Assembly (NCBI RefSeq): GCF_020171315.1
Contig: NZ_JAIUZP010000005.1
Span: 372,001-436,000 of the forward strand
Direction: 5' to 3'
DNA from: Pseudooceanicola nanhaiensis
GTDB lineage: Bacteria > Pseudomonadota > Alphaproteobacteria > Rhodobacterales > Rhodobacteraceae
Length of the DNA stretch: 64,000 nucleotides
The translations under genes and the position numbers were made by a program. The stretch's first letter is position 1; each line of letters begins with the position of its first letter. The notes beneath the pieces were generated by a model. That model was not told where the DNA came from. It ran no database searches and saw only the letters and a list, made by a program, of their open reading frames with translations. Shown piece after piece: positions 63,260 through 64,000 of the stretch.

Positions 63260-63290
63260 GTCGGTGTTCTCTCTGGTCTCCAGGTGCCTT

Positions 63291-63344
63291 GGCGCGAAAC
63301 GGCTATTCCTCTGAGCGGTCGCGCCGAAACGGCACGCTCAGAGG
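63291..63344 (-). promoter_or_regulatory. Mutually exclusive stems of the leuA leader (attenuator)
   Basis: Stem I pairs 63335-63344 with 63308-63317, ten perfect pairs (CCTCTGAGCG / CGCTCAGAGG in transcript sense); its first arm covers the last Leu codon and stop of the leader peptide. Stem II pairs 63319-63325 with 63291-63297 (GGCGCGA / TCGCGCC). One arm of each lies in the loop of the other, so only one can form as a simple hairpin. No T-run follows stem II. Confidence 0.65.
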
Positions 63345-63433
63345 CGCGTTAGGAGAAGCAGCAGGGCGGCAGCCGACAGGCCGCCGGAACGGCGGGTCGC
63401 GCTGAAGGAGATATGATGGCCCTGAATGGTCAT
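63338..63433 (-). CDS. leuA leader peptide
   Basis: A 31-codon frame ending 79 bp before leuA, too short for routine gene calls. The peptide ends 'AAALLLLLTRL': five Leu in a row, encoded CTG CTG CTT CTC CTA, and a sixth (CTC) just before the TGA. CTA and CTT are rare in this GC-rich DNA, which strengthens the stalling effect. The Leu run ends next to alternative RNA stems. This is the layout of ribosome-mediated attenuation. The start at 63433 has no clear Shine-Dalgarno; an in-frame ATG at 63535 is the alternative. Confidence 0.78.
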   Translation of the reverse strand: MTIQGHHISFSATRRSGGLSAAALLLLLTRL

Positions 63434-63642
63434 GCGGGCTGTGTACTGCGCGGAAACTGAATTGAAAACCCGGAAATTCCGCCGCAGCGCCGCAATTGGG
63501 GAAGAGCCGCTGACGTATTGGGAGGGGAATTGCATTCCACCATCGAAACGGCGCGTGGGGAATTGCGTGATGCGGGGCCTTTCCGGGGCAATGCGGGGGA
63601 GTGGTGCGGACAGGTGGTCTGCAGGTGCCGGGGTCTGGCGGT
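63434..63642. other. Upstream region of the leuA leader
   Basis: About 210 bp, no gene. It contains AT-rich patches (63450-63480 and 63520-63545) that should include the leuA promoter. I could not fix -35 and -10 boxes with confidence. Confidence 0.5.
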
Positions 63643-63674
63643 GTAAAAAAGGGCTGCGCGGTTGCGCAGCCCTT
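63643..63674 (-). terminator. Intrinsic terminator of the MORN-repeat gene
   Basis: Perfect 11-bp stem (AAGGGCTGCGC with GCGCAGCCCTT) around four bases. On the minus strand it is followed by a run of T residues (A-run at 63645-63650 on the plus strand). Confidence 0.9.
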
Positions 63675-63737: not shown

Positions 63738-64000
63738 TCACTCCGTCGAAACCACGGGCGCGTCGCCGGGGGCTTCCGCGGTCGTGGCGCTTTCCAGCGC
63801 GCCGTTGTCCCAGGTCCCCGAGGCCTCTTCGCCGCTGGAATAGCGCATCGTGCCCTGCCCATGCCGCTTGCCGCTGAGGAACTGGCCCTCGTAGACATCG
63901 CCGTTGGCATAGGTCGCGACACCCGTGCCGCTGATCTCGCCCGCTTGCCAGTCGCCTTCATAGGTGAAGCCGTCGGGCATGGTGATCTTGCCGGTGCCCT
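63738..64000 (-). CDS. MORN-repeat protein, C-terminal part (5' end outside window)
   Basis: The last 87 residues of a protein whose start lies beyond the right edge. Two clear MORN repeats are visible ('GFTYEGDWQAGEISGTGVATYA' region and 'GDVYEGQFLSGKRHGQGTM'), and a third partial unit with 'GEEASGTWDNG', followed by an Ala/Thr-rich tail. MORN repeats often bind lipids or other proteins. The role of this one cannot be told from the fragment. It ends at a strong terminator. Confidence 0.88.
   Translation of the reverse strand, partial: GTGKITMPDGFTYEGDWQAGEISGTGVATYANGDVYEGQFLSGKRHGQGTMRYSSGEEASGTWDNGALESATTAEAPGDAPVVSTE

Follow-up and report, generated by a model that had tools for sequence, protein, structure and literature searches.

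Our results indicate that the leuA gene of Pseudooceanicola nanhaiensis is preceded by a leader-and-hairpin element that is real and more than the product of chance. From comparison with the sequences of relatives, we propose that this element is a leucine-responsive, ribosome-mediated attenuator of leuA, most likely acting on translation, a reading to which we give a probability of roughly 0.6 and by which leucine synthesis would probably be raised when leucine is short. The best clue to the mechanism, we think, is a predicted helix (P3) between the leucine codons of the leader and a site just ahead of leuA. The start site, the stalling of the ribosome, the direction of control and the translational level are what we infer in this proposal.

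The window, the whole stretch of 64,000 nucleotides that was analysed, is part of a 4.8 Mb genome in which a genome search found one copy of the element, the best candidate for a second (E 6.5 only) being regarded as chance. The leader frame is read upstream of leuA and on the same strand, from an ATG at 63433 to a TGA at 63340-63338, and its final Leu codon is CTC at 63343-63341 (Table 1). The first-pass annotation had placed the 31-codon frame, the run of five Leu codons and both stems correctly, and had left unmentioned that they lie on the minus strand. The next frame 5' of leuA (63738-63998, with MORN-like repeats by eye) is also on the minus strand, and on its 3' side there is a perfect 9-bp hairpin with six T (63645-63672, minus strand). 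Since this hairpin and T-run come after the upstream frame, leuA should have a promoter of its own. A consensus scan for promoters and terminators gave nothing in the window's leuA upstream region, the hairpin at 63645-63672 being absent from its output, and no Rfam family matched the leader region above the gathering score, nor at E ≤ 1.

Table 1. Features of the leuA leader region in the window
Feature	Position	Strand	Basis or remark
leuA, 2-isopropylmalate synthase, 522 aa	61691..63259	-	NCBIfam NF002087 (860 bits) and TIGR00973 (674 bits), both above cut-off
Leader peptide ORF, 31 codons, MTIQGHHISFSATRRSGGLSAAALLLLLTRL, TGA stop	63338..63433	-	direct reading and relatives
Putative regulatory run, five Leu codons CTG CTG CTT CTC CTA	63350..63364	-	direct reading
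Helix P1 (stem I), 5' arm CCTCTGAGCG, includes last Leu codon and stop	63335..63344	-	swap test, pair counts
Helix P1 (stem I), 3' arm CGCTCAGAGG	63308..63317	-	swap test, pair counts
Helix P2 (stem II), 5' arm GGCGCGA, within P1 loop	63319..63325	-	swap test, pair counts
Helix P2 (stem II), 3' arm TCGCGCC	63291..63297	-	swap test, pair counts
Possible inner hairpin P1b (GUGCC/GGCGC), competitor of P2	63321..63335	-	weak: swap test 23/2000
Helix P3, 5' arm UCUCC, inside the Leu codons	63352..63356	-	5 bp only in the window
Helix P3, 3' arm GGAGA, 17 nt before leuA ATG	63277..63281	-	swap test
-10-like hexamer TACACA, 6 nt before leader ATG, poor match	63440..63445	-	one of the 27/90 leaders without a hexamer by the criterion used
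-35-like TTTTCA, 17 nt spacer	63463..63468	-	comparison with relatives

The element recurs ahead of leuA in relatives. When two paralogues and one match starting inside the gene are removed from 133 loci, 130 remain, and 113 of these (6 duplicates included) have a frame with at least two consecutive Leu codons and a stop in or beside a hairpin. The other 17 lack this arrangement and include L012, L022, L033 and L049 of the Rhodobacterales. In L012, L022 and L033, leuA appears by eye to lie close behind another coding frame; these three and L049 are named loci matched by LeuA. A stricter combination, at least three consecutive Leu among the last nine codons together with a stop in or beside a strong hairpin, is present in 52/144 alphaproteobacterial leuA upstream regions (133 of them distinct, and 25 loci contributed by R1, a covariance model trained on Rhodobacterales-type sequences only) against 0/720 dinucleotide shuffles.

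From the 113, the 6 duplicates and 9 loci in which P1 is followed by over 70 nt were removed, leaving 82 distinct Rhodobacterales-type loci and 16 named others for the tests of pairing described below. Runs of at least three Leu codons are found in 74 of the 82 and are weaker in much of the remaining class, where 33/53 leaders have at most three Leu codons among the last nine. The typical leader ends in LLLL(S/T/I)RL before the stop in Rhodobacterales and in L-R-L-x-x-P before the stop in many other members of the class. Among relatives, the open frame and its Leu run are retained while the spacer lengths and the N-terminal half of the leader differ. Within that N-terminal half, a His-Ile pair (CATATC; 63410-63418 in the window, leader codons 6-8) is itself conserved, 'HI' occurring in the first 10 residues of 42/81 leaders against 7.3 expected from residue shuffling.

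Pairing was assessed with an alignment-free swap test, in which the best helix between two strands of the same locus is compared with that between strands swapped between loci, over 2000 permutations. In the 82 Rhodobacterales-type loci, both P1 (cognate 27.11 versus swapped 24.80) and P2 (19.79 versus 17.51) gave 0/2000, which bears out the earlier claim of a leucine leader with two stems ahead of leuA and shows that both stems are conserved and covary. P1, of 10 bp in the window, is conserved class-wide, its core being absent by the criterion used in 36/89 distinct class loci. Two MAFFT alignments point the same way. Alignment A1, hand-picked for typical length (47/85 candidates, so that its 100% P1 pairing is the property of a selected set), has 25 cells in which both partners changed against 11.9 in shuffles (0/500 as high), and its further pair types are not outstanding (54/500 as high). 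In the class-wide alignment A2, made for P1 only from 54/62 candidates with 8 left out by hand, there are 42 such cells against 9.1 (0/500), the stop codon itself covarying with its partner strand.

The first-pass annotation held that only one of the two stems can form, which is correct for nested structures; the stems nevertheless cross and both covary, and a pseudoknot is allowed. With 10 bp in P1, 7 bp in P2 and junctions of 9, 1 and 10 nt, the topology is that of an H-type pseudoknot. Because P1 and P2 cross and both covary, such a fold may be at least as likely as mutually exclusive stems. The candidate inner hairpin P1b uses a strand in common with P2 in 61/74 cases. Outside Rhodobacterales, the swap test gave no support for P2 and its pseudoknot in the 16 named loci (401/2000).

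The attenuation picture first drawn from the window, sound as to leader and stems, had missed a third helix. P3 would join the Leu codons to a purine-rich site located mostly 15-27 nt before leuA. In the 82 loci, cognate strands score 17.16 and swapped strands 13.33 (0/2000), and the control, the 24 nt 5' of the Leu codons, is null (10.68 versus 10.73; 1128/2000). Support extends to the 16 named loci outside Rhodobacterales (5/2000) and to 50 class loci (0/2000, 3/53 with tails above 110 nt having been dropped), although at class level the control was raised too (36/2000), presumably by differences in base composition. The arms change on both strands, as in CUACUAAGC/GCUUAGUAG, UCCUUAGC/GCUAAGGA, CUCCUAA/UUAGGAG and UUCUUCUUACGCU/AGCGUAAGAAGGA. 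The swap test is relied on for P3 since the sliding register of this helix leaves its columns on A1 with only 58.7% paired cells. In most Rhodobacterales loci a gap of 14-22 nt separates the end of P3 from the ATG, which puts the paired site upstream of the usual Shine-Dalgarno position; several named loci outside the order have it closer, about 10 nt from the ATG or less.

The Leu codons (CUC CUN) would be suited to this double role because they contain the complement of the Shine-Dalgarno core. Their usage is strongly biased: in 77/82 loci the run closes with CTA or CTT, where the codon usage of the leuA gene at the same locus would predict 7.5, and CTA makes up 19% of the Leu codons in leader runs versus 0.7% in those leuA genes. 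Either pairing in P3 or the starvation sensitivity of rare codons would account for this bias.

The region upstream of the leader points to where transcription may begin. A -10-like hexamer ending 4-9 nt before the ATG is found in 63/90 Rhodobacterales-type leaders, of TATAGT type in most relatives, and 67 such hexamers occur at those offsets against 22 over 49 other offsets. A T-rich -35-like block starts 22 nt further upstream. The position of these elements places the probable start at or next to the leader AUG, so that the leader of Rhodobacterales is probably leaderless. As a class-wide trait the leaderless promoter was rejected (8/53 versus 6.2 expected), and it is restricted to Rhodobacterales. 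Leaderless mRNAs are common in Caulobacter, where the available part of one study reports 375 (PMC4117421), and trpL of Sinorhizobium meliloti is described as leaderless (PMC10117765).

We propose, then, that transcription would start at or near the leader AUG and that the outcome would depend on the supply of leucyl-tRNA. When it is plentiful, ribosomes would complete the leader and depart; the Leu codons could then pair with the purine-rich site, enclosing the P1/P2 pseudoknot, and initiation at leuA would be hindered. When it is scarce, a ribosome stalled on the Leu run would cover the P3 strand, leaving the site open and leuA translated. Folding of the 82 loci with a ribosome on the Leu run is consistent with this scheme, the median unpaired fraction of the zone from -27 to -15 rising from 0.354 to 0.584, with an increase in 68 loci and a decrease in 9. 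The change is modest in the zone from -14 to -4 (0.594 to 0.652; up in 53, down in 21) and non-significant at the leuA start codon (0.589 to 0.615, p 0.21). In the window, the first zone stays shut (0.39 to 0.38) and the second opens (0.51 to 0.82). A ribosome at the stop codon opens the zone in these folding calculations as much as a stalled one, and the model therefore needs kinetics, in that the terminating ribosome leaves.

The alternatives place control at transcription or in a protein. A T-run follows P1 in one of the 82 loci and P2 in another, 2/82 in all, and in the window direct reading and the consensus scan gave no T-run after stem II and no intrinsic terminator. The T-run noted as missing in the first-pass annotation is indeed missing, and its suspicion of non-intrinsic, perhaps translational, control agrees with the rarity of T-runs among relatives; intrinsic termination was rejected for the window and nearly all relatives. 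Together with the opening of the zone by a stalled ribosome, the scarcity of T-runs favours translational attenuation.

A serious rival, if an unlikely one, is that translation of the leader governs Rho-dependent termination: with ample leucine the ribosome would leave and Rho would terminate, and stalling or the alternative fold would give protection. The near absence of intrinsic terminators, just described, would suit it, and the available text of Seliverstov et al. (PMC1262725) raises the same option for the cys leaders of Actinobacteria; yet Rho alone gives no reason for the covariation between the Leu codons and the sequence directly ahead of leuA. We consider quite improbable the classical scheme, whose logic the first-pass annotation invoked, in which one stem (P1 or P2) is a terminator of transcription and the other an antiterminator. 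Two crossing stems overlap the end of a leader whose codons for the pathway's own amino acid lie near its stop, and in a divergent class member, L254, P1 is followed by eight T and resembles an intrinsic terminator, so that control may be transcriptional in some lineages. Against it, 80/82 Rhodobacterales-type loci have no T-run after either stem, P2 is without support in the 16 other named loci, and P3 is left out of account.

It is more doubtful still that the pseudoknot is the site of a regulatory protein, the leader codons being only a pairing strand, as Seliverstov et al. suggested for Actinobacteria. Conservation of the pseudoknot would agree with such a role, but the open frame and the Leu run are kept where spacers and the N-terminal half of the leader vary. 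The available text of the same paper (PMC1262725) also gives two accounts of the results for Streptomyces leuA leader mutants that are not fully consistent; the first would fit P3, since a codon mutation breaks the helix, and the second would not. If translational attenuation through P3 is true, a changed Leu codon would disrupt the sequestering helix as well, and this may be part of the reason why these mutants showed non-classical behaviour. Finally, a chance frame with chance hairpins and no function has practically no probability left, for although the folding energy of the window's leader is unremarkable, and so uninformative as support for the element (z -0.88; 45/200 shuffles fold at least as well), conservation refutes it through the 0/720 shuffles, the covariation and the class-wide models.

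Covariance models were used to follow the element across genomes, with stricter filters, and hence loss of weak matches, in the class search with R1 and in the class and phylum searches with a second model, R2. In the 385 class genomes R1 gave 30 matches; 25 come from families other than that of the window, and 30/30 adjoin leuA. R2, built mostly from class loci, has matches in 134/385 class genomes, a count that, unlike that of R1, is partly by construction because 45 of its training sequences come from the same genomes. A leuA-family gene accompanies 55/55 of the best-scoring R2 loci returned by the class and phylum searches, and 10 of 20 further places examined as doubtful or outside the class; the 10 without one were taken as chance, one of them, before ilvA, perhaps not. 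Of 94 class genomes carrying a close leuA, 60 appear among the R2 matches listed and 34 do not. Over the phylum, 92/398 genomes match, and 3 of these are outside the class (E 0.001-0.003); none of the three has a leuA-family gene in the stretch examined, and all were rejected. One of the three coincides with a hairpin that resembles a terminator and has a T-run. The element also points to a small gene, so far unannotated, that precedes leuA in many genomes.

The match before ilvA (threonine ammonia-lyase) is a weaker one (L320, G553:C14:107284-107353, E 0.01), with its stop in a CCCCTGA hairpin, and its genome also carries an R2 match before leuA (L319). It is possibly a sister element.

In one family, f13 (L314, L315 and L334-L348), which we guess to be sphingomonads, the element precedes the other LeuA type at 17/17 R2 places, the type having been assigned by NCBIfam in two (TIGR00970, over cut-off) and by tblastn to one of these in 15. 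The swap test for P3 gave 2/2000 in these 17 loci, but the control there was raised as well (69/2000). The type of enzyme differs while the control region stays, and hence the element is tied to leucine synthesis, not to the ancestry of one gene; this suggests that the control region outlasted a change of enzyme in one family.

Among the papers listed in searches of the openly accessible literature there was no report of this element in alphaproteobacteria, and the assertion in the first-pass annotation that such attenuation is reported there for leuA-type genes found no match among them; an alphaproteobacterial ilvB leader is mentioned in the accessible part of PMC1273637. The closest parallel is the actinobacterial LEU element (Seliverstov et al. 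2005, PMC1262725), which likewise lies ahead of leuA and has a leader with a Leu run and a pseudoknot, with no terminator described in the available text. It is also described with a base stem that joins its Leu codons to the Shine-Dalgarno sequence and with a possible alternative hairpin, for which P3 and P1b would be the candidate counterparts here. As far as that text goes, the present element differs in its host class, Alphaproteobacteria, in usually preceding the other LeuA type (leuA_bact), and in having the stop codon inside P1, a pseudoknot supported in Rhodobacterales only and, in that order, a P3 target upstream of the usual Shine-Dalgarno position and a probably leaderless leader. 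Judged by the described architecture, it may be called LEU-like, and shared descent and convergence would both be possible. A 413-codon gene on a Streptomyces plasmid, 24% identical to the query, was not taken as the intended leuA.

Translational attenuators of the Erm and cat type also free a downstream ribosome-binding site through a ribosome stalled on a leader. There the signal is an antibiotic, and the regulatory codons are not known to serve as the pairing strand themselves, whereas in our model the signal would be missing charged tRNA. The enterobacterial leuLABCD attenuator, which we take to be the Rfam family Leu_leader (RF00512), stands close in its sensing. Its leader contains Leu codons (28 aa with 4 Leu in Escherichia coli) and controls leuA by the same sensing logic, but through a terminator/antiterminator pair, as given in the available part of PMC6123439. 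The trpL of Sinorhizobium meliloti is similarly a leaderless mRNA for a leader peptide in an alphaproteobacterium, and differs in that it controls trpE through an attenuator that yields a small RNA, according to the accessible text of PMC10117765.

We put at even odds a broader proposal: a leucine switch found throughout the class, in which the sensing codons would also be the anti-ribosome-binding strand and would enclose a hairpin bearing the stop codon (in Rhodobacterales, a pseudoknot), ahead of two LeuA types, with ancestry or design shared with the actinobacterial LEU element. If true, it would offer a testable mechanism in which the same codons sense and sequester at once. The range of an RNA described from Actinobacteria in 2005, with its mechanism unsettled at that time, would then widen to a class that includes species easily handled in the laboratory.
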